The notes under the pieces: model-generated | The model's input: the letters and a program-made list of their open reading frames with translations, nothing else | What the model was told of the DNA's origin: nothing | Databases searched by the model: none | Shown: positions 44,236 to 54,606 of the stretch, piece after piece | How the letters are laid out: the number at the start of each line of letters is the position of its first letter | Numbering within the stretch: position 1 is the first letter of the stretch | Position numbers and translations under genes: made by a program | Assembly (NCBI RefSeq): GCF_041435215.1 | Contig: NZ_CP108394.1 | Span: 2,232,001 to 2,296,000 of the forward strand | From: Streptomyces sp. NBC_01314 | GTDB taxonomy: Bacteria > Actinomycetota > Actinomycetes > Streptomycetales > Streptomycetaceae | Length of the DNA stretch: 64,000 bases | Direction of reading: 5' to 3'

Positions 44236-45276
44236 CTACCTTTCTGTGAGCCCCAGTTCGACGCTCACCTGACGGAATCGGTCCAGGCAGCGGCCCCACG
44301 CCCCGCCGGTCTCGAAGTCCAGCAACTGCGGCAGCAGCGCGGCCGAGAAGTCGGTGCTCGCCTCCCGGGGCAGCAGGGAGGGCAGGTTGTCGATGGCGAT
44401 GAGATCGAGCGGAGGGTGCTCGCGCAGCCGCCGTACGGGGTGGTCCCATTCCGTGGTCGTGTCGTAGACCGGCAGGACGTTCATCGGTGAGCCGACGTCG
44501 ACGGTGACGTCGCAGAGCGTCCTGAGCCCGCGGTCCGGGCCGTCGAGGTCCTTGTCCGTCAGGAAGGGCGGGACCGGGCTGGTCGTCAGAACCGTGTTGA
44601 CCATCAACTCGTGCGCCAGGAGGGCCGGTCGGTCCAGGTCGCGGGTCTCGGCCAGGTCCCAGCAGGTCGGCTCGACGCCCGCCTCGGCGAGCGCCGCGCG
44701 CGCACCCCGGCCGCTGCGGCCCAGGGCGCCGATCACCAGCGCGCTCACGTCACCGGTCGACGCGCGGAGTTCGGCCTCCATCGCCTCCTTGGACGTGGGC
44801 CGCAGTGGGGCCCGCAGGACGCCCCGGTGGTGGAGCACGGCGAGGGCCGCGCCCAGATAGCCGGCCCAGAAGCCGAAGGCGGCGAGCCTGCGTCCCCGGT
44901 CGTCCTCCAGATACTCCAGGTCGAGCAGCGCGCCGCCCCCGGCCGCGAACCTGCGCAGCAGTGTCCCGGCACCGGGCTGCCCCTTGTAGGCGTGCCCGAA
45001 GAAGATATGACGGTGGGTCAGCTCGACCGGCGCGTCGGGTAGTTCCTTCAGGCCCACGATCACCGCTCGCGCCGACGCCGACACCCATGAGCCGGGGTCG
45101 GCGACCTGGCAGCCCGCCTCCTCGTACTCCTCCACGGGGAAGATCCGCTGGGGGGAGTCCTCGACGGTGATCCGTACTCCGCTCCCGACGAGCCGCCGGG
45201 CGTCGGACGGCACGATCGGGGTGCGGCGTTCGGTGGCGCGGGTCTCGTGGCGGAGCCACAAGTGGAGATCGGTCAT
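44236..45276 (-). CDS. Saccharopine dehydrogenase-like (LYS1 / alanine-dehydrogenase fold) protein
   Basis: A 346-residue protein. N-terminal block LWLRHETRATERRTPIVPS (~6-24), then VGLKELPDAPVELTHRHIFF and HAYKGQPGAG (~95) as in yeast Lys1; the cofactor region is ALVIGALGRSGRGARAALAE (~178) and MVNTVLTTSPVPPFL follows. This is the lysine-forming saccharopine dehydrogenase type, an NAD enzyme. The start overlaps the FAD oxidase stop (ATGA). Having LYS1-like and LYS9-like genes side by side in a bacterium suggests a saccharopine-like intermediate is made and split, perhaps in catabolism of a diamino acid or in making an opine-type compound. Confidence 0.85.
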   Translation of the reverse strand: MTDLHLWLRHETRATERRTPIVPSDARRLVGSGVRITVEDSPQRIFPVEEYEEAGCQVADPGSWVSASARAVIVGLKELPDAPVELTHRHIFFGHAYKGQPGAGTLLRRFAAGGGALLDLEYLEDDRGRRLAAFGFWAGYLGAALAVLHHRGVLRAPLRPTSKEAMEAELRASTGDVSALVIGALGRSGRGARAALAEAGVEPTCWDLAETRDLDRPALLAHELMVNTVLTTSPVPPFLTDKDLDGPDRGLRTLCDVTVDVGSPMNVLPVYDTTTEWDHPVRRLREHPPLDLIAIDNLPSLLPREASTDFSAALLPQLLDFETGGAWGRCLDRFRQVSVELGLTER

Positions 45277-46418
45277 ACGCGGTTGGCCTCCGGGCGCAGG
45301 GAGTCGGCCGTGAACCGGTCGACGCTCAGCGGGCTGATGTCGACGAAGGGTACGCGCCCGAGGTACAGGTCACGGACCACCTCGCCGACCGCCGGACCCT
45401 GGAGGAATCCGTGGCCGGAGAACCCGGTCGCGTAGAGGAAACGGGAGCACGAACCGGCCTCGCCGATCAGGGCGTTGTGGTCCGGCGTGATCTCGTACAG
45501 GCCTGCCCAGCCGCCCGTCCGGCGCAGGTCGAGCAGGCCGGGCGCGCGGCGCTCCATGGCCTCGTACAGGCGGGGGATCCAGCGGTCGTGGGTGTCGGTG
45601 GCGAAGCCGGGCCGTTCGTCCGGGTCGGACATGCCGAGAAGGAGGCCGGGGCCCTCGGTGTGGAAGTAGAGGCTGCTGGTGAAGTCGATCGTCATGGGGA
45701 GGTTCGGCGGGAGGCCGGGGACCGCTTCCGTGACGGCGATCTGGCGGCGCAGGGGCTCCACCGGGAGGTCCACACCCACCATGGCGCCGACGGACCGGGA
45801 CCAGGCGCCGGCCGCGCACACGACCGTGTCGGTGACGATACGGCCCTTGCTGGTGACCACCGCGGTGATCGTGTCCCGCCAGGTCTCGATGCCCACGACC
45901 TCGCAGTTGCGCAGCACGGTCACCCCGTGGCGGCGGGCCCCGGCGGCGTAGCCGTGAACCACGGACTCGGGGGTGCAGTGCCCGTCGTCGGGCGAGAACG
46001 CGGCGGCGAGCAAACCCTCGGTGGAGATCAGCGGGGAGAGCCGCTGGGCCTCGGCGGGGTCGACCATGCGGCTGGGCACACCCAGGTCGTTCTGGAGCTG
46101 TACGCCCGCCTCGAACTGGGCGACCTCGTCGGGGGTCGTCAGGAGGAAGAGGTAGCCGACCCGGTGGAGTCCGATGTCGTGGCCCAGCTCCTGTCTGAAG
46201 CGGCCGAACGCCTCCAGGCTGCGGGCGCCGAGCTGGATGTTGAGTTCGTCGGAGAACTGCGCGCGGACCCCGCCGGCGGCCCTCGCGGTCGATCCGGAGG
46301 CCAGTTCGTCGCGTTCGACGAGGACGACGTCGTCCACTCCGGCGGCGGCCAGATGGTAGGCGATGCTCGTCCCGATGACGCCTCCGCCGATGACGACGAC
46401 CCGTGCGCTGCGGATCAC
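45273..46418 (-). CDS. FAD-dependent D-amino acid/sarcosine oxidase-like protein
   Basis: A 381-residue DAO-family flavoprotein. GxGxxG at VVVIGGGVIGTSIAYHLA (~7-24), the Glu of VLVERDELASGSTARAAGG (~33), and the second dinucleotide region WAGLYEITPDHNALIGEAG (~310) with the C-terminal ATGFSGHGFLQGPAVGEVV. It oxidises an amine or secondary amino acid and passes electrons to O2 or another acceptor. GTG 46418 follows AAAGGAG. It heads the operon with the two saccharopine-dehydrogenase-like genes; together they could oxidise a secondary amine such as saccharopine or an opine. The 191 bp upstream hold nothing I recognise. Confidence 0.9.
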   Translation of the reverse strand: MIRSARVVVIGGGVIGTSIAYHLAAAGVDDVVLVERDELASGSTARAAGGVRAQFSDELNIQLGARSLEAFGRFRQELGHDIGLHRVGYLFLLTTPDEVAQFEAGVQLQNDLGVPSRMVDPAEAQRLSPLISTEGLLAAAFSPDDGHCTPESVVHGYAAGARRHGVTVLRNCEVVGIETWRDTITAVVTSKGRIVTDTVVCAAGAWSRSVGAMVGVDLPVEPLRRQIAVTEAVPGLPPNLPMTIDFTSSLYFHTEGPGLLLGMSDPDERPGFATDTHDRWIPRLYEAMERRAPGLLDLRRTGGWAGLYEITPDHNALIGEAGSCSRFLYATGFSGHGFLQGPAVGEVVRDLYLGRVPFVDISPLSVDRFTADSLRPEANRV

Positions 46419-46609
46419 GAACGCTCCTTTCGGCCGACCGAGGTCGGATGGCCCGACGGAGTCAGGTCTTCCACCGCGGGCGAACGTTCATGCGGAGCAC
46501 CCCCGTACTTGCCGAAGGAACAGTGCGTGCGCGGCTCCGGGCGGGCGCGGCGGCCGATGTCGGAGCCGTAGGTCGCCTCCGGAACGGGCCGCCGCGCGAA
46601 CCCCGGAGC

Positions 46610-47269
46610 TCAGGACGAGTGGACCACCGCGTCCAGGTGCGGCAGGTAGTGGTCGAGCCGCTCCCGCTTGGTGCGCAGGTAGGTGATGTTGTCCTCGCAC
46701 GGCGTGATCAGCAGCGGCACCTGCTCGGAGACCGCGATGCCGTGGCGCAGCAGCGCCTCCCGCTTGCGCGGGTTGTTCGACATCAGCCGGACCGACCGTA
46801 CGCCGAGGTCGTGCAGCATCTCGGCCGCCACCCGGTAGTCGCGGGCGTCCACCGGCAGCCCGAGGGCGAGGTTCGCCTCGACGGTGTCCAGGCCCTCCGC
46901 CTGGAGCTTCATCGCCTGGAGCTTCGCCAGCAGGCCGATACCGCGCCCCTCGTGGCCGCGCAGATAGACGAGAACGCCGCGCCCCTCGGCGACTATCGCC
47001 CGGAGCGAGCTGTCCAGCTGCTCGCCGCATTCGCAGTGCTGGGAACCGAACGCGTCACCGGTCAGGCACTCCGAGTGCAGCCGTATGAGAATTCCCTCAC
47101 CGCCGCTGATGTCGCCGTACACCAACGCCACTTGTTCCTCGCCGCGGTCCTGGTCGAGATAACCTACGGCCTCGAAGTCACCATAGGTCGTGGGCAGGGG
47201 GGCGTTCACCACGCGTACGGCGCCGGAGGACTGGGCGTTCGTGCCGAGTACACCAACATTTTCTGTCAT
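46610..47269 (-). CDS. GTP cyclohydrolase II paralogue with Met120 (predicted FAPy-forming, GCH III-like activity)
   Basis: A 219-residue RibA-family protein. Zinc Cys residues are C68, C79 and C81 (HSECLTGDAFGSQHCECGE); YLRGHEGRGIGLLAKL and MSNNPRKREALL follow. E. coli RibA has Tyr105 in IRAYALQ; here the aligned residue is Met120 (LQAMKLQAEG). S. coelicolor SCO6655 has the same Met120 and was shown (Spoonamore et al. 2006) to stop at the formylamino product FAPy; M120Y restored normal GCH II activity. So this is very probably the SCO6655 orthologue and not the riboflavin enzyme; it also lacks a DHBP synthase domain. It is divergent from a creatininase-family gene with a 78-bp gap. Confidence 0.93.
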   Translation of the reverse strand: MTENVGVLGTNAQSSGAVRVVNAPLPTTYGDFEAVGYLDQDRGEEQVALVYGDISGGEGILIRLHSECLTGDAFGSQHCECGEQLDSSLRAIVAEGRGVLVYLRGHEGRGIGLLAKLQAMKLQAEGLDTVEANLALGLPVDARDYRVAAEMLHDLGVRSVRLMSNNPRKREALLRHGIAVSEQVPLLITPCEDNITYLRTKRERLDHYLPHLDAVVHSS

Positions 47270-47347
47270 GATCTGATTCCAATCTGGTAAGCCCTGGCGT
47301 CATGCGAAAATGACGGAGCATCAGCAGAGACGAGAGGCCTTGAAAAG

Positions 47348-48139
47348 ATGAGCAGTTCGAGTCTTGTACCGACGGACACCACCGCGGACGTCCGCGCGCG
47401 GGGGGCGGAGGCCGGCCGACAGGTCGCGGTGCTTCCCGTCGGCAGCTACGAGCAGCACGGCCCGTATCTGCCGCTGGCCACCGACACACTCGTCGCCTGC
47501 GCCATATCCAGGGAGATAGCGGCCGCGTATCCGGTGCATCTCCTGCCGCCCGTGACCATCGCCTGCTCGCACGAGCACGCGGCCTGGCCGGGCACCGTCA
47601 GCATTTCCGCGACGACCCTGCACGCGATGGTCCGCGACATCGCCGCGTCCCTGCGCCGGTCGGGCGTCGAGGCGCTGGTGGTGGTGAACGGACACGGCGG
47701 GAATTACGTTCTGGGCAATGTCGTCCAGGAATCCACCGCGGCGGGACATCGAATGGCGCTTTTCCCGGCGATGGAGGACTGGGAATCCGCCCGCGAACGG
47801 GCGGGCGTACAGACCTCGTTGCTCAGCGATATGCATGCGGGAGAAATAGAGACCTCCATACTTCTGCATTGCCACCCCGAATTGGTCCGGCCCGGTCACG
47901 AGACCACCGATTTCCTTGCCGACGACCGCCGTCATCTCCTCTCCCTCGGTATGTCGGCCTACACCGATTCCGGTGTCATCGGCCGTCCGTCCCTGGCATC
48001 AGCCGAAAAGGGGAAGGAGTTGCTGGCAGGGTTCGTCGAATCCTTCGGGGCGTACTTCTCGTTGGTCACCTCGGACACCTGGGACAAGGGAACGGTTCCG
48101 CCCGAGGCGCCGTCGGCACCCGCCTCGGCCGTCGGCTGA
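47348..48139 (+). CDS. Creatininase-family amidohydrolase (possible FAPy formamide hydrolase, ArfB-like)
   Basis: A 263-residue creatininase-fold metal enzyme. Motifs in order: LPVGSYEQHGPYLPLATDT (~32-50, metal Glu/His/Asp), CSHEHAAWPGTVS (~76), VVNGHGGNYVL (~115) and DMHAGEIETSILL (~160). The family includes creatininase, MftE and the archaeal ArfB, which removes the formyl group from the FAPy nucleotide. It is divergent from a cyclohydrolase predicted to release exactly that compound, so a deformylase role is the best guess. Its last 181 bp overlap the convergent membrane-protein gene tail to tail. ATG 47348; weak ribosome-binding site. Confidence 0.88.
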   Translation: MSSSSLVPTDTTADVRARGAEAGRQVAVLPVGSYEQHGPYLPLATDTLVACAISREIAAAYPVHLLPPVTIACSHEHAAWPGTVSISATTLHAMVRDIAASLRRSGVEALVVVNGHGGNYVLGNVVQESTAAGHRMALFPAMEDWESARERAGVQTSLLSDMHAGEIETSILLHCHPELVRPGHETTDFLADDRRHLLSLGMSAYTDSGVIGRPSLASAEKGKELLAGFVESFGAYFSLVTSDTWDKGTVPPEAPSAPASAVG

Positions 48140-49548
48140 CGGCGGGCCCGCAGGGAGCCGTACCAGCGTCCGACGAGCACGAGGGCCCCCGGCAGGGCGG
48201 CCGCGAAGCTGAGCACACCGTAGACGATGGCCACGGTCAGCCCCTGGGAGGCGCCCAGACCGGCGGCGCCGAAGGACCAGGCGGTGACGCCCTCACGGGG
48301 GCCCCAGCCGCCGACGTTGAGCGGCAGGCTCATGGCGATCAGGGCCAGCAGCGCGAGGGGCAGCAGCTCCAGCGGGGTCGCGGCGGACCCGGCGACGCGT
48401 GCGGCGAGCAGGAACGTCACCACGTATCCGGCCAGTACCGCCACCGACGAGACCAGCACGGCCGGGCCGCTGTCGCGGTTCAGCAGCGCGCCGCGCGCCT
48501 CGGTGAGGGCGGCCCTGACCCTGCGGCCCCGGCCTCCTGCCGCGCTCGGCCTGCGGCCCATCCGGACCGCCGCCCAGATCGCCAGCGCGCCGAGCCCGAC
48601 GAGCACGGCCACACCCGCCACGTGACGGGTCTGCTCCAGCACCGGCGACGGCAGCACCAGCAAAACCGTTACGCCCACGGCTGCCAGCACCAACTGGCCC
48701 GCCGTACGCTCGATCACCACCGCACGCACGCCCCGGCCCATGTCCCCGGAACTCCGGCCGTGCCGCACCGCGCGGTGCACGTCGCCGAGGACACCGCCGG
48801 GCAGTGCCGCGTTGAGGAACAGTGCACGGTAGTAGTCCGCGACGGCCGGCCCGAGCGGCAGCCTGATCCCGAGCGCCCGGGTCACCGCGCACCAGCGCCA
48901 CGCGCTGCACACCGTGGTGAACACGCCGATCCCGACCGCCGCCGCCAGCGTCCCGACGTCGATCCGCCGCAGCCCGTCCACGAACACGCCGGTACCCATC
49001 CGCCAGAAGACGACGGCGAGGATGACCGTTCCGGCGAGCGTGCCGAAGTGGGTGCGCAGGGCACGGGTGAATTTGGCACCGGGGCGGGGCGGGGCGGAGG
49101 CCTCGGTCGAGGGGGCCTCCGGTGAGGTGGCGTCCGGCGTCGCGACGGGCACCGCCGTAGGGCGGTGCGGCATGGACGAGTCGGAGGCGGCCTCAGAGGC
49201 GGTGATCGACAGCGAGGTCGCACCGAGGATCGGCGTAACCGAGTCGGCGCCCACGTCCGAGGCGGCCGTCGGCGACGCGGTACGGCCGGCCGCCGCGGCC
49301 GGGGACGTCGCCGCCGAGCCCCTTTCGGAACCCTCGTCCGGGGCCGCCCCGCGCAGGTCCGTGCCCGGTTCCACCGCCGCGGCAGGCAGGTCGCGCGGGC
49401 CCGCGCCGGGTGTGAGCGCGCGTACCCTCGCCCGCGCCCCGGGCGTGCTCGCCCTCACGCGGGCCCGGACTCCGCGTGGACGTACGCGTACGCGGTCCTC
49501 CGTCGCCGGCGGGTGGGCCGCGACCGTCTCCTCCGCCGGCGCCGTCAT
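47959..49548 (-). CDS. Lysylphosphatidylglycerol-synthase-TM-like (flippase-type) integral membrane protein
   Basis: A 529-residue protein. The first ~155 residues are Ala/Pro/Arg-rich and disordered; then about seven hydrophobic helices, beginning FGTLAGTVILAVVFWRMGTG. Family blocks: CSAWRWCAVTRALGIRLPL, ADYYRALFLNAALPGGVLGD, VVIERTAGQLVLAAVGV and SLPLNVGGWGPREGVTAWSF. The UPF0104/LPG-synthase TM family includes the lipid-flipping part of MprF. It is the last gene of a four-gene leftward operon (start overlaps the methyltransferase stop as ATGA). Its C-terminal ~60 residues are read antisense to the creatininase gene and look unstructured. Confidence 0.85.
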   Translation of the reverse strand: MTAPAEETVAAHPPATEDRVRVRPRGVRARVRASTPGARARVRALTPGAGPRDLPAAAVEPGTDLRGAAPDEGSERGSAATSPAAAAGRTASPTAASDVGADSVTPILGATSLSITASEAASDSSMPHRPTAVPVATPDATSPEAPSTEASAPPRPGAKFTRALRTHFGTLAGTVILAVVFWRMGTGVFVDGLRRIDVGTLAAAVGIGVFTTVCSAWRWCAVTRALGIRLPLGPAVADYYRALFLNAALPGGVLGDVHRAVRHGRSSGDMGRGVRAVVIERTAGQLVLAAVGVTVLLVLPSPVLEQTRHVAGVAVLVGLGALAIWAAVRMGRRPSAAGGRGRRVRAALTEARGALLNRDSGPAVLVSSVAVLAGYVVTFLLAARVAGSAATPLELLPLALLALIAMSLPLNVGGWGPREGVTAWSFGAAGLGASQGLTVAIVYGVLSFAAALPGALVLVGRWYGSLRARRQPTAEAGADGASGGTVPLSQVSEVTNEKYAPKDSTNPASNSFPFSADARDGRPMTPESV

Positions 49549-50510
49549 GACACTCCGCCCGTCGGCCGGGGCAGGGCCAGGAGGTCGCTGTGGTGGACGA
49601 CGACGCGGAGTTCGCCGGCCGCGTTGGCCTCCAGGCGGTCGCGGAGGTAGGCGTCGGCGCGCCCGGTGAGTTCGGGGCGCTGGTCGCAGGCGGCACCGAC
49701 CCAGCCGCGCAGCCACTCCTCGGTGAGGGCGGTGTGCCGCGTGTCGAGCTGCCAGGGGCTCGGGTGGACCCGGACCGTGGCGCCCTGCTGGGCGAAGGCC
49801 TCGCAGGCCGTGGTGATCGCGTCCGGGCCGAGCAGATCGCTCGCGCGCTGGTGGGCGTTGAACGCCTCGGCGATCTCGGTGTCCATGGGATGCGCGGGAA
49901 CGACGTCCACGCGTCCCACGACCGACAGGGTCAGCAGGGCGGGGACCCCGGCGCCCGCGCAGGCCGCGGCGAGCGCCTCGATCTCCTCGCGGGTGAGCAC
50001 GTCGAGCAGCGCGGACGCGGTGACCAGCGAGGCGCCGGCCAGGTCGTCCGCCGTCAGCCGCCCGATGTCGCCGCGCCGCGTGGAGACCGTGACGGGGCTG
50101 CCGTCGGCGGCCGCGCGGGGCGCCCGCGCGACGGCCAGCCGCAGCAGATTCGGGTCCTGGTCGTGCAGCACCCACCGCTGGGCGCCGTCCAGCCGGGGCG
50201 CGAGCCAGCGGCCCATCGAGCCGGTGCCGCAGCCCAGGTCGTGGACGGTCAGCCCGGTGGCCCGGCCGGGCAGGTTCGCGAGGCGGATCCGCAGCGGGTC
50301 CAGCAGATCCGCCGCGCGGGCGTCGGCGTCGGCGCTCTCGCGCAACTCCAGCCACTGCGGCGCGTACTGGTGCCCCTCGGGTGCCGGCGTGTCACCACCG
50401 CGCCCCGCCATGCTCAGCGCGGCCCCGGAAGCGGACGCACCCGCCGCGGCGGTGCCACCCACGGACAGTGGCCCACCCGCGGACGCGGTCATATCGGCAG
50501 AAGTGGTCAT
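49545..50510 (-). CDS. Class I SAM-dependent methyltransferase
   Basis: A 321-residue protein. After ~45 Ala/Gly/Ser-rich residues, the Rossmann methyltransferase core shows motif I VHDLGCGTGSMGRWLAP (~89-105), an acidic WVLHDQDPNLL (~113) and motif IV-like DDLAGASLVTASALLDVLT (~154). The acceptor is unknown. Its ATG overlaps the glycosyltransferase stop and its stop overlaps the membrane-protein start, so it is tightly coupled to both. In this operon it may methylate a sugar or the heterocycle made by the cyclohydrolase branch. Confidence 0.88.
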   Translation of the reverse strand: MTTSADMTASAGGPLSVGGTAAAGASASGAALSMAGRGGDTPAPEGHQYAPQWLELRESADADARAADLLDPLRIRLANLPGRATGLTVHDLGCGTGSMGRWLAPRLDGAQRWVLHDQDPNLLRLAVARAPRAAADGSPVTVSTRRGDIGRLTADDLAGASLVTASALLDVLTREEIEALAAACAGAGVPALLTLSVVGRVDVVPAHPMDTEIAEAFNAHQRASDLLGPDAITTACEAFAQQGATVRVHPSPWQLDTRHTALTEEWLRGWVGAACDQRPELTGRADAYLRDRLEANAAGELRVVVHHSDLLALPRPTGGVS

Positions 50511-51730
50511 GCCGCCCTCCGAGGTTCGTGCCGCAACCGTCCCAGTACATGGGCGAGGCTACGGGCCGTGGTCGCCCACCCGTCCAGCGCGGCCCGGCGC
50601 CCGCGCGCCGCGGCCTTCAGCCGACGCCGTACGTCGGCCTCCCCGAACCAGCCGCGCAGCTCCGCCGCGATGGCCGCCGGGTTCTCCGGCGGTACGAGGA
50701 TGCCGGGGACCCCGCCGTCGGGGGCTCGGCCGACGGCCTCGGGGAGACCGCCGACGTCCGTGGCCAGGACGGGGATCCCGCGCGCGAGGGCTTCGGTGAC
50801 CGCCATGCCGTATGTCTCGGCGTAGGAGGTGAGGACCATCAGGTCGGCGGCGGCGTAGCTGGCGTCGAGTCGCGCGCCGGCCTGCGGTCCGGCGAGGTGG
50901 AACCGGTCCTCCAGCCCGAACTTCGCGATCAGCGTGCGGATGTGGTCGACGTACTCGGGCTCCTGGTCGAGGCTGCCCACCAGCACACAGCTCCAGCGCA
51001 GTTCGGTGACGGTCGCGAGAGCCTCCACCAGCCGGTGCTGCCCCTTGCGCGGGGTGACCGCGGCCACGCACAGCAGCCGGGAGACGCCGTCGGTGCCGGA
51101 GGCGAGGGGTGCGATGTCGGCGCCGGGGGCGGCGACATGGACCCGCTCGGGGGCGAGCCCGTGGTGTGACACGAGTCTGCGGACGGCCCATTCGCTGGTC
51201 GCGATCACGGCGGACACACCCCGCAGGGTCGCCCGCTCCTTGGCGTCGAGTTCGGCGGCGAGTTCGGGCTCCAGACCCGTCTCGTCGCCGAGCGGCAGAT
51301 GCACCAGCACGGCCAGGCAGAGGCGCTCGGCCTCGGGGAGGATGATCTCGGGGACGCCACAGGCGACCAGGCCGTCGAGGAGGACGACCGTGCCGTCGGG
51401 AAATTCGCGCAGCGTACGGGCGAGTTCGGCGCGTGCCGTCTCGGACGGGCTGGGCCAGCTGCCGTCGATCGCGTGCTTGTGCACCTGCCAGCCGAAGCCC
51501 GGCAGGTCGAGGCAGATCCGGCGGTCGTAGGCGTTGCCGCCGCTGGGCCGGGCCAGGTCGTCCACGCCACCCGGCATCACGAAGTGCAGGGAACGCAGCG
51601 ACATCGGAACGATGGCCGCGTTCTTCAGCGCCGCGTTCTGCACGGGCACATAGCCGAGCCTCACTTGCTCTCCCCCGTTTGCCTGGGCGCTGGTGCCGAC
51701 GGCCGCCCGGTCGATGGTCACGTCGGTCAC
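50507..51730 (-). CDS. Glycosyltransferase, family 4 (GT-B)
   Basis: A 407-residue GT-B enzyme. The N-terminal acceptor domain has [19 protein letters not shown] and [19 protein letters not shown]; the donor domain has [19 protein letters not shown] (~214), the EX7E motif in [19 protein letters not shown] (~320) and VGGLPEAVG. It transfers a sugar from an NDP donor with retention, to an unknown acceptor. The start is GTG 51730, overlapping the PTPS-like stop as GTGA, and its own stop overlaps the methyltransferase. SCO6650-SCO6655 of S. coelicolor would hold an equivalent gene if the order is the same (inference). Confidence 0.9.
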
Positions 51731-52125
51731 AGAGCACGCTCGTAACTCGCCCAGGCGATGTGCGACTCGTGCAGGGTGACCGTGATTCCCGCGATGCCCT
51801 TGGCGTTCTCCCCCAGGGCGCCGTTGTGGATCCGCTCGGCGAGGCGGTCCGCGATCACCTTGGCCAGGAACTCCGTCGAGGTGTTCGTGTGGGCGAAGAC
51901 GGGCTCGTTGTCGAGGTTGCGATAGTTCAACTCGCTCACCACGGCACCGAGCTCCTGCGTGGCCAGCCCGATGTCTACGACGATGTTGTCGTCGTCCAGC
52001 TCGGCGCGCCGGAAGGTGGCGTCCACGAGGAACGTGGCGCCGTGAAGGCGCTGCGCGGGTCCGAAGACCTCCCCGCGGAAGCTGTGGGCGATCATGATGT
52101 GATCGCGGACGGTGATGCTGAACAA
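51727..52125 (-). CDS. 6-pyruvoyltetrahydropterin synthase homologue lacking the zinc and catalytic residues
   Basis: A 132-residue T-fold (PTPS/QueD) protein. Start TTG 52125, with GGAGGG 7 nt upstream; the longer frame has no such site. The metal region reads [20 protein letters not shown]14 and H28 remain, but the usual second His of HGH is Ala30 and the catalytic Cys is absent. The solved S. coelicolor homologue SCO6650 likewise lacks zinc and the catalytic triad and has no PTPS activity while keeping a pterin-binding pocket (Spoonamore et al. 2008). The conserved pterin-binding Glu is probably in TLHESHIAW (~120). First gene of the four-gene leftward operon. Confidence 0.9.
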
Positions 52126-52293
52126 CGGACGACCCTCCAGTGCGGTACGTCTGCCCCCGGGCCGGGGCATGCCGTGTAGTACGGCTGCTCCCTACCCGTT
52201 GTTCAGCCGAGTTTTGCGGTTTCTTTGGAGGTCAATGTTCCGTTCGGGCAGTTCAGGGGCGGGTGGGACAACCCAGAACGCTCGACCTCCGGC

Positions 52294-53277
52294 TCACTCG
52301 GCACCGTAGCGGACCCGGTGGCACAAAATCCCCGGCAGTTCTCCGCTCGCCAGCTTCGGCATGACGTCCGGGAGCTCCTCGAAGGCACACTCTCCGGTGA
52401 CCAGTGCGTCGAAGCGGGCGTCGGCGAGGAGCTCGAGGGCGAGCGCCAGCCGGTCCGCGTACGTACGTCCGACGCGCCCGGCCGGGGAGACGGTTCCGAC
52501 CTGGCTGCTGCGGATGGTGAGCCGGCGCGAGTGGAAGGCCTCGCCGAGCGGCAGGGCGATCCGGCGGTCGCCGTACCAGCTCAGCTCGATGACCGTGCCC
52601 TCGGCGGCGAGCAGTTCGATGGAGCGGACGAGTCCCTGTTCGCTGGCGCTGGCGTGCACGACGAGGTCGCACTCCCCCAACGCGTCCTCGGGCAGCGCGA
52701 AGTCGACGCCGAGCGCGCGGGCGACGCCGGCGCGCGCCGGGTCGGCGTCGACCAACTGGACGCGCACGCCCGGGTAGCGGGCGAGCAGCGCGGCGACCGA
52801 GCAGCCGACCATGCCGCCGCCCACGACGGCGATCCGGTCCCCGATGAGCGGAGCCGCGTCCCACAGGGCGTTGACGGCGGTCTCCACGGTCCCGGCCAGG
52901 ACGGCCCGCGCCGCGGGCACGGACTCCGGCACAACCGTGACGGCGCTCACGGGCACGACGTAGTGACTCTGGTGCGGATACAGGCAGAAAACAGTCCTGC
53001 CGAGCAGTGCGTCCGGCCCCTCTTCCACCCGCCCGACGCTGAGATAGCCGTACTTCACGGGAGCGGGGAAATCGCCCTCCTGGAAGGGCGCGCGCATGGT
53101 CGCGTGCTGGTTCTCGGGCACTTGGCCGCGGAACACGAGCGTCTCGGTGCCCCGGCTGACTCCTGAGTACAGCGCACGGACGAGCACCTCGTTCTCGCCG
53201 GGTTCGACGAGCGTCTCCTCGCGGATCTCACCCTGTCCCGGGGAGCGTAGCCAGAAGGCCTTGGCTGTCGGTTTCAT
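52294..53277 (-). CDS. MDR-family (zinc-alcohol-dehydrogenase-like) oxidoreductase
   Basis: A 327-residue medium-chain dehydrogenase. N-terminal GroES-like part: ALYSGVSRGTETLVFRG (~43-59), where classical enzymes have a zinc Cys (CGTD) and this one has Ser-Arg; FCLYPHQSHYVVP follows. The cofactor domain starts with IGDRIAVVGGGMVGCSVAAL (~158) and VQLVDADPARA. It is shorter than typical ADHs and may be zinc-free. ATG 53277 has GGAGA upstream. It points away from the CDP-alcohol phosphotransferase and lies 168 bp upstream of the PTPS-like operon, so it probably belongs to the same pathway. Confidence 0.87.
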   Translation of the reverse strand: MKPTAKAFWLRSPGQGEIREETLVEPGENEVLVRALYSGVSRGTETLVFRGQVPENQHATMRAPFQEGDFPAPVKYGYLSVGRVEEGPDALLGRTVFCLYPHQSHYVVPVSAVTVVPESVPAARAVLAGTVETAVNALWDAAPLIGDRIAVVGGGMVGCSVAALLARYPGVRVQLVDADPARAGVARALGVDFALPEDALGECDLVVHASASEQGLVRSIELLAAEGTVIELSWYGDRRIALPLGEAFHSRRLTIRSSQVGTVSPAGRVGRTYADRLALALELLADARFDALVTGECAFEELPDVMPKLASGELPGILCHRVRYGAE

Positions 53278-53383
53278 GTGCGTCTCCGTGAACGGTCGGG
53301 CGGTTCGCCACGTACGCAGCGGTGGAAGTCGCGGACACGGTACGCGGCGATGATCCACTTGTCACACGTTCGGAAGGTATGCG

Positions 53384-54196
53384 GTGGCCCTGATCAACAC
53401 ATACAACGGCCGGCTGTTGCTCTCGGAGACGACCGTGGGCGCGGGCGCCCAAGTGCTGCTCCTCGCCTTCCTGGGCACGGCGATCGGACTGGGCCCGGCG
53501 GGCTGGCTGACCGGGCTGGCCTTCGGGCTCGCCACCTGGGCCGTCCTCAACCGCGCCCTGCTGCGCACCCGGACCCGCACCTTCGGCCCCGCCAACCGCG
53601 TCACCCTGGGCAGGGCGATACTCGTCGGCGCCGTCACCGCCCTGGTCGCCGACTCCTTCGAGAGCTCGCCGCCCGTCTCGCTCTTCGTCGGCCTGACCGC
53701 CGTGGCACTCATCCTCGACGGCGTCGACGGCAAGGTGGCCCGGCGCACGAACACCTCGACCGCGCTGGGCGCGCGCTTCGACATGGAGGTCGACGCGTTC
53801 CTGATCCTGGTGCTGAGCGTGTACGTCTCCATGTCGATGGGCCCGTGGGTGCTGCTGATCGGTCTCATGCGGTACGTCTTCGTCGCCGCCGCCAAGGTCG
53901 CGCCGTGGCTGAACGGTTCCCTCCCGCACAGCATGGCCCGCAAGACGGTCGCCGCGGTCCAGGGCGTCTTCCTGCTGGTCGCCGCCTCCGGCCTGCTGCC
54001 GTACGCGGCCGGCTTCGGCCTGGTCGCACTGGCGCTGGGCTCGCTGCTCTGGTCGTTCGGGCGGGACATCGCCTGGCTGTTCCGCCACCGCGAGGGCCGG
54101 AACGTGCCGACGGCCCCGGCGGCCGTGAACGAGACGGTGAGCGTGGCCGTGATGGCCCCCGCAGAGCGCCGGACCGCCGAGCTCGTCTCCAGCTGA
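53384..54196 (+). CDS. CDP-alcohol phosphatidyltransferase family membrane protein
   Basis: A 270-residue protein with about six hydrophobic helices. The catalytic signature is complete: DGVDGKVARRTNTSTALG followed by ARFDMEVDAF (~107-135), i.e. D-G-x2-G-K-x-A-R with the downstream G-x3-D-x3-D. It joins an alcohol to a CDP-linked lipid or polyol, releasing CMP, at the cytoplasmic face of the membrane. GTG 53384 has GGAAGG upstream. It is divergent from the MDR gene and close to the glycosyltransferase/flippase operon, which suggests the product of that set is lipid-linked. Confidence 0.88.
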   Translation: MALINTYNGRLLLSETTVGAGAQVLLLAFLGTAIGLGPAGWLTGLAFGLATWAVLNRALLRTRTRTFGPANRVTLGRAILVGAVTALVADSFESSPPVSLFVGLTAVALILDGVDGKVARRTNTSTALGARFDMEVDAFLILVLSVYVSMSMGPWVLLIGLMRYVFVAAAKVAPWLNGSLPHSMARKTVAAVQGVFLLVAASGLLPYAAGFGLVALALGSLLWSFGRDIAWLFRHREGRNVPTAPAAVNETVSVAVMAPAERRTAELVSS

Positions 54197-54353
54197 CCGA
54201 CGGGCTCACCGCGAGCCGACCTCGTACGGGCCCTGCTCAACGAACCGTGAGAACGGTCTTGCCTCGTCCGGTCGGTCTCCCCGTGAGCGTGTGCCCTGGC
54301 GGCCTCGGCCGACGGGAAGGCCGCGTGGTCGACGCCTCGCCCAGTACGTCCGG

Positions 54354-54606
54354 ATGAGCCTGCGCACCTTCGCCCGCCGCTTCGACGACTAGGTCGGCCT
54401 GAGTCCCGGCCCGCTCGCTCTCTCGCCTAGCAACGCGTGGCCCGCACCCGCCACCTCCTGGAATCCACCGACCTCCCGGTCGACGAGATCACCGGCCACG
54501 TCGGATTCGCCACGGGCACGTCACTGCGTCGGCACCTACACCTGCACGTACAGGCGGCGATCGGAGTACCGCCGCTGACGTGTCGACGTACCTTCCGGGC
54601 GGGAAC
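54354..54606 (+). pseudogene. AraC/GlxA-type regulator remnant (HTH part only)
   Basis: The frame from ATG 54354 reads MSLRTFARRFDD and hits an in-frame TAG at 54390-54392; about 45 bp on, in another frame, ARTRHLLESTDLPVDEIT, HVGFATGTSLRRHLH and VPPLTCRRTFRAG complete the two helix-turn-helix motifs of AraC proteins. The sensor domain is missing and there is at least one stop and one frameshift, so it is dead. The 150 bp before it show no clear gene. Confidence 0.6.

Follow-up and report, generated by a model that had tools for sequence, protein, structure and literature searches.

The front end of archaeal riboflavin and F420 synthesis divides the opening of GTP (GCH III/IIa) and the subsequent deformylation (ArfB) between two enzymes, and the corresponding archaeal enzyme that forms 2-amino-5-formylamino-6-ribosylamino-pyrimidinone 5'-phosphate (FAPy) is called GTP cyclohydrolase (GCH) III (PMC9478397). 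Published FAPy deformylases include ArfB in archaea and, in Sinorhizobium meliloti, BrbF, a bacterial enzyme of the creatininase superfamily that releases formate from the same FAPy (PMC9478397). In cyanopterin synthesis, a pteridine glycosyltransferase (PgtA/Slr1166) gives rise to a methylated, glycosylated pterin (PMC3546692). Here, we analyzed a locus at positions 46610-54196 of a 64,000-nucleotide stretch of Streptomyces sp. NBC_01314 (the window; contig NZ_CP108394.1, positions 2,232,001 to 2,296,000, or 2.23-2.30 Mb of the 11.3-Mb genome). Its eight genes encode a RibA-type GTP cyclohydrolase II (GCH II), a creatininase-family amidohydrolase, a flippase-like membrane protein, a methyltransferase (MT), a family 4 glycosyltransferase (GT4), a protein of the 6-pyruvoyltetrahydropterin synthase (PTPS)/QueD fold, an MDR-superfamily oxidoreductase (MDR), and a CDP-alcohol phosphotransferase (CDP-AP). 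We lean towards the view that the locus specifies a dedicated pathway that would lead from GTP, via a ring-opened, non-deaminated pyrimidine, to a small molecule that is glycosylated and methylated and resembles a pterin or a pyrimidine.

The locus appears to share with the archaeal front end the division of ring opening and deformylation over two enzymes. It differs in that an altered RibA of bacterial type would open the ring, and in that PTPS, GT4, and MT take the place of riboflavin genes downstream. BrbF, by contrast with the window protein, serves riboflavin. A GTP-derived heterocycle, a glycosyltransferase, and a methylated glycoside would be common to this locus and to cyanopterin synthesis, but the gene sets differ: CDP-AP, flippase, GCH II, and creatininase are not among the parts of the cyanopterin system set out in the accessible portion of that account (PMC3546692).

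In Streptomyces coelicolor, the SCO6650-SCO6655 run likewise has an orthologous PTPS and a RibA with Met at the position of the canonical Tyr. The six window genes from PTPS to RibA are collinear with this run and fit it by count, taken from the window side, as a preliminary description of this DNA had proposed. Studies of the run are known for its two end genes only, and SCO6655 is reportedly an FAPy-forming GCH II (Spoonamore and colleagues, in 2006). In the literature searched by locus tag, SCO6650 is unmentioned and, among six further tags, only SCO6652 appears, in one transcriptome table. SCO6652, to which the window MT corresponds by position, is upregulated in the second mycelium (MII) of sporulating solid cultures, with log2 values of 4.3 and 4.1 at 48 h and 72 h compared to MI at 16 h (PMC3610822). 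SCO6655 turns up in one paper, a modeling study, which lists it with genes whose expression is anticorrelated with the flux that was predicted (PMC2853524). Searches with SCO tags, with cyclohydrolase plus creatininase, with gene-name combinations, and for pterin glycosides returned no description of the cluster in a literature set whose coverage excludes most subscription papers, in agreement with the earlier view that the pathway is undescribed.

Gene calls combined with Pfam and NCBIfam placed the eight genes where the preliminary description had them. Three 4-base stop-start overlaps, PTPS/GT4 (GTGA), GT4/MT (ATGA), and MT/flippase (ATGA), link four of the genes, as had also been noted. 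RibA and creatininase are divergent with 78 bases between them; MDR and CDP-AP are divergent across 106 bases (53278..53383) whose sequence is conserved in the alignment consensus of 79 loci. By strand, the eight genes fall into no fewer than four transcription units (RibA; creatininase; flippase to MDR; CDP-AP) and thus are not one operon.

The preliminary description had staked its proposal on gene order being conserved beyond close relatives, and order held. In the best 80 of 560 confirmed PTPS relatives, that is, the closest ones, all of them from Streptomyces, the order and orientation of all eight genes are kept at 75 loci; four of the remaining five end with their contig (L054, L094, L109, L122) and the fifth, L110, is a second, lone PTPS copy. 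Within these 80 the nearest PTPS proteins are from Streptomyces scabiei/stelliscabiei (97-98% identity), and PTPS is usually the best-conserved member of the set (86-98% identity). When listings for 147 Streptomycetales genomes were compared by hand, PTPS was present in 77 (E<=1e-12), creatininase in 79 (E<=1e-45), and both in 75, indicating that the gene set behaves as an accessory unit; two genomes have PTPS without creatininase (G770, G772) and four have the reverse. The Streptomyces gene order, together with recurrence across phyla, rules out a chance neighborhood. A second Streptomyces cluster type has all eight genes plus a RibD_C gene in 5/5 loci. Lone PTPS copies, 76-90% identical and with the rest of the cluster absent, also occur (L110, L145, L159); a plasmid of Streptomyces anthocyanicus carries one of the three.

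Beyond Streptomyces, neighborhoods of 20 kb (shorter at contig ends) were taken from 18 of the 70 genomes that matched in a phylum sample of 296. A class sample of 394 genomes gave 57 matches, and neighborhoods were taken from 35 of the 37 non-Streptomyces genomes among them (G381 and G395 were left out). MDR matched 67 plasmid records and PTPS 22, and 16 of these were opened, eleven via the PTPS listing and five via the MDR listing. Neighborhoods were analyzed by translated search, with Pfam for selected proteins; a gene is called absent or undetected when tblastn at E<=1e-6 gave no match up to 12 kb from PTPS, or as far as the sequence reached. A core of MDR, a PTPS-like protein, GT4, and, less constantly, MT recurs in other Actinomycetota, Pseudomonadota, and haloarchaea. 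MDR and PTPS occur together in 69/76 loci, with MDR directly upstream of PTPS in 65 of the 69 (exceptions L142, L164, L183, L188). Six of the 76 have PTPS without MDR (L131, at a contig end, and L140, L141, L145, L147, and L159, with no cluster) and one, L153, has MDR and GTP cyclohydrolase IIa with no PTPS match. Among the 69 loci that were grouped by lineage, which differ from the 69 MDR-bearing ones by a single locus (L146 against L131), GT4 is present in 65 and MT in 57. Plasmid clusters or loci were found in Thiodictyon, Methylosinus, Peteryoungia, Agrobacterium, Rhizobium, Neorhizobium, Palleronia, a Rhodobacteraceae bacterium, Microbacterium, and haloarchaea, and the named matches of a further protein search include Chromatiaceae.

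Around this core the make-up varies by lineage. The 16 loci of f86, a family of the same class, all have MDR, GT4, and MT, with flippase and CDP-AP in 15 each, RibA in 13, creatininase in 12 (13 with a distant copy), and RibD_C in none. Among 23 other Actinomycetes loci, MDR and GT4 were found in 22 each, RibD_C in 19, flippase in 17, CDP-AP in 15, RibA and a sulfatase-like gene in 13 each, and MT in 12. The eight loci from Pseudomonadota have MDR and MT throughout, GT4 and RibD_C in seven, RibA, CDP-AP, sulfatase-like, and cytochrome b561 genes in four each, and flippase in three. In haloarchaea (five loci), MDR and MT are constant, followed by CDP-AP (4), GT4 (3), GTP cyclohydrolase IIa (2), and creatininase (1). 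Finally, the 12 loci of family f18, possibly Rubrobacteraceae, all carry MDR, GT4, RibD_C, and FolB, and 11 carry MT; RibA, creatininase, CDP-AP, and flippase were undetected. Collectively, the core is MDR-PTPS-GT4 with MT less constant. The precursor module is variable: it may be RibA by itself, RibA paired with creatininase, or GTP cyclohydrolase IIa, and RibD_C may or may not be added. The genes of a membrane module (CDP-AP, flippase, sulfatase-like, cytochrome b561) are likewise present in some clusters and missing from others. The pathway is real and widespread.

The evidence that bears most directly on its first steps comes from RibA and creatininase. The window RibA (46610..47269, minus strand; PF00925, 221 bits) keeps the zinc-cysteine stretch GDAFGSQHCEC of a GCH II domain; the canonical Tyr is missing, and Met120 aligns with Tyr105 of E. 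coli GCH II. The protein is therefore predicted to stop at FAPy. The residue part of the earlier claim of a FAPy-forming cyclohydrolase is thus upheld, and its product part rests on the activity reported for SCO6655. All 75 RibA proteins found in the 80 classic Streptomyces loci have Met at this position, and the five other RibA copies in the window's own genome all have Tyr. Two GCH II copies in this genome (G000:C1:122958 and 11204386) have equal scores and frame lengths and each lie ~123 kb from an end of the 11.33-Mb contig, which suggests terminal inverted repeats.

If a RibA that has lost the Tyr stops at FAPy, as is reported for SCO6655, then a separate deformylase is expected exactly in those cases. 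Among 35 clusters with MDR and RibA, the RibA has Tyr in 16/16 that lack a creatininase within 12 kb and a different residue in 18/18 that have one (Met 7, Leu 6, His 4, Gln 1). The sole exception, L195 (Leu, no nearby creatininase), has a 61% identical creatininase orthologue 13 kb away; with this case included, non-Tyr RibA and creatininase are paired in 19/19 clusters. This count takes in L146, a classic Streptomyces cluster, and leaves out clusters without a RibA match, L140 and L147 (RibA ~5 kb off, no MDR), and L131 (contig cut before MDR; RibA with Tyr). No orthologue-grade creatininase was found in the 12 genomes and 4 plasmids that bear Tyr clusters (best E 3.5e-29, 31-44% identity); the matches in 6 of these genomes and 2 of the plasmids are distant family members at most. 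By comparison, the creatininase in two non-Tyr genomes has 60-61% identity (E 2.9e-82 and 2.7e-77). Furthermore, three f86 genomes in which the cluster RibA is absent (G497, G558, G670) have only Tyr RibA elsewhere, and their best creatininase matches are 33%, 36%, and none, a co-absence of both partners in two genera. The variety of residues that replace Tyr suggests that loss of the Tyr itself was what mattered.

The window creatininase (47348..48139, plus strand; PF02633, 219 bits) has the motifs EQH, D, NGHGGN, and HAGE.E, presumably the metal ligands of creatininase. With this fold, these metal-binding-type motifs, and its association with a FAPy-producing partner, it is a predicted FAPy deformylase with an ArfB/BrbF-like role. 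ArfB itself belongs to the creatininase superfamily. Taken together, the Tyr/creatininase pattern and the three genomes without both partners indicate that the creatininase is very probably the deformylase for the FAPy product of RibA. The earlier proposal of a cyclohydrolase coupled to a creatininase-type deformylase candidate thus gains strong support from the 16/16 versus 18/18 split and the genome-wide control.

Haloarchaeal clusters offer separate support for this coupling. GTP cyclohydrolase IIa, which belongs to an unrelated family, forms FAPy. Its gene lies directly before MDR-PTPS in Haloarcula sp. GH36 (316 bits) and H. pelagica, so that two Haloarcula clusters carry the very enzyme of the archaeal front end, and in Natrarchaeobaculum it is beside MDR with no PTPS. 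In H. marismortui, a creatininase-family gene is 6.8 kb from PTPS.

The window PTPS (51727..52125, minus strand; PF01242, 79 bits) is the orthologue of SCO6650 (PDB 3d7j, 253.8 bits) and belongs to the fold family of QueD and 6-pyruvoyltetrahydropterin synthase (COG0720, PF01242). Unlike those enzymes, it has neither the catalytic Cys nor the PTPS-III Glu, and Ala replaces the second His of HGH in its 12-residue motif. Its score of 35.5 bits compares with a QueD cut-off of 89.25. The cluster proteins of Actinobacteria outside f18 and of proteobacteria have H...FGPAQxxHGAT[FYL], with PAR in L188 and HGV in L184. HGH is retained in f18 only (FGPAxRxHGHTY), and 4/5 haloarchaeal proteins have QH...HSH[HR]Y. 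A catalytic Cys is present in none of these motifs, and no cluster PTPS matches the published CxxxHGH (QueD), CxxxxxHGH (PTPS-II), or ExxHGH (PTPS-III) motif (PMC5041015). The histidines of AH and of the first HG are retained, as is the C-terminal Glu (ESH in the window). Ordinary Cys..HGH proteins at the non-cluster loci L140, L141, and L147 provide an internal contrast. The preliminary description had called the PTPS dead, which proved misleading: only the known catalytic residues are missing, and the altered motif itself is kept across phyla. We accordingly rejected a degenerate, dead PTPS, since two phyla have conserved the altered motif. The protein is better described as a member of a conserved Cys-less subfamily, with a predicted altered chemistry or binding role, than as a decaying gene.

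The PTPS gene has a TTG start codon in 80/80 loci and a conserved leader (52126..52240, minus strand) with a promoter-like element, a GC hairpin, and a conserved ribosome-binding region. CTGAAC and TANTAC are present in 68/80 loci, at a spacing of exactly 19 bases in all 68. The hairpin varies in sequence; set against 50 mononucleotide shuffles, which is a weak control, 51/52 distinct segments fold below the mean. An Rfam scan of 46400-54600 gave 0 matches to E = 1.

Many clusters outside the classic Streptomyces type carry a RibD_C gene. In the five partners tested (L129, L133, L139, L151, L200), no deaminase domain was found. The L129 protein scores 128 bits with the model for the archaeal 2,5-diamino-6-ribosylamino-pyrimidinone phosphate reductase and 120 bits with that for the RibD C-terminal domain, both below cut-off. 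For L151 and L139 the RibD C-terminal model gives the higher score, and the L139 protein exceeds the cut-off of that model; the models thus leave the substrate unsettled. Among solved structures, the L129 protein is closest to 5xux (116 bits; 'Conserved protein', which we take to be Methanosarcina mazei Rib7), followed at 91 bits by 6p8c, which is named as a reductase of this kind. T-fold enzymes bind a 2-amino-4-oxo ring, and the RibD_C data fit reduction without deamination, which would keep this ring.

The enzymes predicted to decorate the product are clear by family. GT4 (50507..51730, minus strand) matches PF00534 at 103 bits, and MT (49545..50510, minus strand), a class I S-adenosylmethionine-dependent enzyme that overlaps both neighbors by 4 bases, matches PF13649 at 34 bits. 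In L168, L174, and L186, GT4 and MT are separated by two extra genes, identified by Pfam in L168 as an MFS transporter and a Methyltransf_19 protein. The NAD(P)-dependent MDR (52294..53277, minus strand) is BchC-like (TIGR01202 bchC, 48.7 bits against a cut-off of 291) and has three weak matches to solved structures, the best at 23.2 bits. CDP-AP (53384..54196, plus strand; PF01066, 57 bits) is polytopic and has an intact catalytic motif, D..DG..AR.{8}G...D...D, whose residues are invariant across 22 aligned cluster proteins; it is below the cut-off of every named substrate class, with a best score of 24.6 bits against 109 for pgsA and 180 for archaetidylinositol phosphate synthase. The flippase-like protein (~47959..49548, minus strand; LPG_synthase_TM, PF03706, 108 bits over residues 172-452) has a long N-terminal extension and seven hydrophobic windows, and the end of its frame overlaps the 3' end of the creatininase gene on the opposite strand.

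Based on these data, we propose the following sequence of reactions. The Tyr-less RibA would open GTP and stop at FAPy, as its residue and the reported SCO6655 activity suggest, and the creatininase-family enzyme would then remove formate to yield 2,5-diamino-6-ribosylamino-pyrimidinone 5'-phosphate. Where the cluster RibA of other lineages has the Tyr and no creatininase accompanies it, this one enzyme presumably performs both steps, and in two haloarchaeal clusters the unrelated GTP cyclohydrolase IIa would be the opener. Where present, the Rib7/RibD_C-type reductase, lacking a deaminase domain, would reduce the ribosyl group and leave the 2-amino-4-oxo ring intact. The Cys-less PTPS homologue may then bind the ring and, with MDR, reshape the side chain or close a second ring, before GT4 glycosylates and MT methylates the product. 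Finally, in Streptomyces and several other lineages, CDP-AP and the flippase-like protein probably put the product, or its sugar-alcohol phosphate, onto a membrane lipid and across the membrane. Comparative genomics supports the first two predicted steps well; lipid linkage is plausible and is the least certain part of the proposal.

Several observations weigh against this pathway. To our knowledge there is no biochemistry for any cluster gene except SCO6655. MT is present in only 12/23 other-Actinomycetes loci and GT4 in 3/5 haloarchaeal loci, indicating either that the core is not invariant or that the search missed some members; in haloarchaeal L152 and L157, an annotated GT4 gene ~4-6 kb upstream was unmatched as a homologue. 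RibD_C is undetected in classic Streptomyces clusters (window, L146) and in 16/16 f86 clusters, and the reductase step is thus not universal. The window's own genome has RibD_C matches of 31-44% only and no close orthologue. Where RibD_C is missing, the pathway would either do without the step or leave it to a housekeeping enzyme. The lipid genes are undetected in 12/12 f18 clusters and CDP-AP in 4/8 proteobacterial clusters, and linkage to a lipid would therefore be an optional tier at most. Accordingly, the earlier suggestion of a glycosylated, lipid-linked heterocycle remains consistent with the gene set, but not as a universal lipid linkage. In f18, the presence of RibD_C and FolB without RibA or creatininase in 12/12 loci hints that the precursor may be a pterin from GCH I.

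Other points against the proposal concern the creatininase. On a RibA tree of 49 rows, which includes only every eighth classic Streptomyces RibA, the Tyr/creatininase association is one change (98/83 support; 98% of 200 bootstrap trees). The 16/16 and 18/18 counts are thus not independent data, and we rejected them as sufficient independent evidence; the association is a single event that has been faithfully maintained, together with the co-absence seen in two genera. The window creatininase scores 38.4 bits against an ArfB cut-off of 180, and its best NCBIfam model is MftE, at 136 bits and below the cut-off of 172; the BrbF family is absent among its NCBIfam matches. The H. marismortui creatininase is also below the ArfB cut-off, with its best score, again below cut-off, for MftE. 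Finally, creatininase homologues of 58-62% identity with no RibA nearby occur in the 4/147 Streptomycetales genomes that lack PTPS, indicating that the family probably has other roles. Homologues with this range of identity and no RibA or PTPS nearby (L217-L221) are probably a paralogue with a different role.

Among the alternatives, a soluble, cyanopterin-like pterin glycoside is possible, though we doubt it. Here MDR, PTPS, GT4, and MT would make a methylated, glycosylated tetrahydropterin that acts as a redox buffer, UV screen, or signal, and CDP-AP and flippase would be unrelated envelope-lipid neighbors. Cyanopterin provides the precedent, and the f18 clusters, which combine the core with RibD_C and FolB and have no detected lipid genes, are what this explanation would predict. 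FolB (dihydroneopterin aldolase) is close to, and divergent from, the RibD_C-MDR-PTPS-GT4-MT cluster in all 12 (L132-L139, L142-L144, L148). However, CDP-AP in 43/69 and flippase in 40/69 grouped loci, and both in 75/75 uncut classic Streptomyces loci, are too regular for chance, and known pterin glycosides start from GCH I, whereas many clusters carry GCH II or IIa.

We consider it unlikely that the locus consists of two interlocked modules, in which RibA, creatininase, PTPS, and MDR produce a small cofactor and GT4, MT, CDP-AP, and flippase assemble an envelope glycolipid that needs this cofactor. The enzyme families do sort readily into those of heterocycle and those of envelope chemistry, and MT or GT4 is undetected in some loci that have MDR-PTPS. 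On the other hand, clusters in which RibA, CDP-AP, and flippase are all undetected (f18, Neorhizobium L161, Haladaptatus L163) still have GT4 and MT alongside MDR-PTPS. Furthermore, GT4 and MT overlap in the window and are fused in L133; in L135 they form a single 642-aa frame.

Less probable still is that the creatininase is not a deformylase but has some other amide as its substrate, like MftE or creatininase itself, and accompanies RibA by shared descent. The MftE score and the single change on the RibA tree are in its favor. Against it stand the pairing with non-Tyr RibA in diverse clusters, the three genomes without both partners, the Tyr-cluster genomes without an orthologue-grade copy, and BrbF, which shows that the superfamily is capable of FAPy deformylation (PMC9478397). 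The L182 cluster adjoins a mycofactocin-like locus with a second creatininase-family gene, as judged by eye from its neighbors. Lastly, it is very improbable that the locus is a second copy of the riboflavin front end that is turned on late in development to supply a flavin or F420 precursor: RibA and RibD_C are riboflavin-type enzymes and SCO6652 is induced in the second mycelium, but by Pfam the eight proteins include no RibB, RibH, RibE, or deaminase, on which ground a riboflavin operon was rejected, five further RibA copies are in the genome, and PTPS, GT4, and MT are not known to have a role in flavin synthesis.

A more specific form of the proposed GTP-derived pathway can be put forward only tentatively, and we think it is probably not correct in full. 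According to this version, Actinomycetota, Pseudomonadota, and Halobacteria would use FAPy or its deformylated form to make a new lipid-anchored, glycosylated, methylated, pterin-like and non-deaminated redox cofactor, with the Cys-less PTPS/QueD-fold subfamily building or remodeling the ring; the cofactor would be made late in Streptomyces development and work with a membrane cytochrome b561 in rhizobia and Thiodictyon. Cytochrome b561 and sulfatase-superfamily genes are present in 4/8 proteobacterial clusters (L149, L151, L154, L160), which suggests a membrane redox role there. In the window, the RibA gene is followed at 44236-46418 (minus strand) by genes for a DAO-type FAD oxidoreductase and an AlaDh_PNT_N protein; they are near the cluster in 39/80 and 46/80 Streptomyces loci, respectively.

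Our analysis places SCO6655 and SCO6650, hitherto enzymes without a pathway, in one gene set with a predicted deformylase, GT4, MT, MDR, and membrane-lipid enzymes, and related gene sets cross phyla and reach haloarchaea. If the proposed pathway is correct, it would represent a new branch of GTP-derived metabolism, a new T-fold subfamily, and a new cofactor or lipid in a much-studied bacterial genus.

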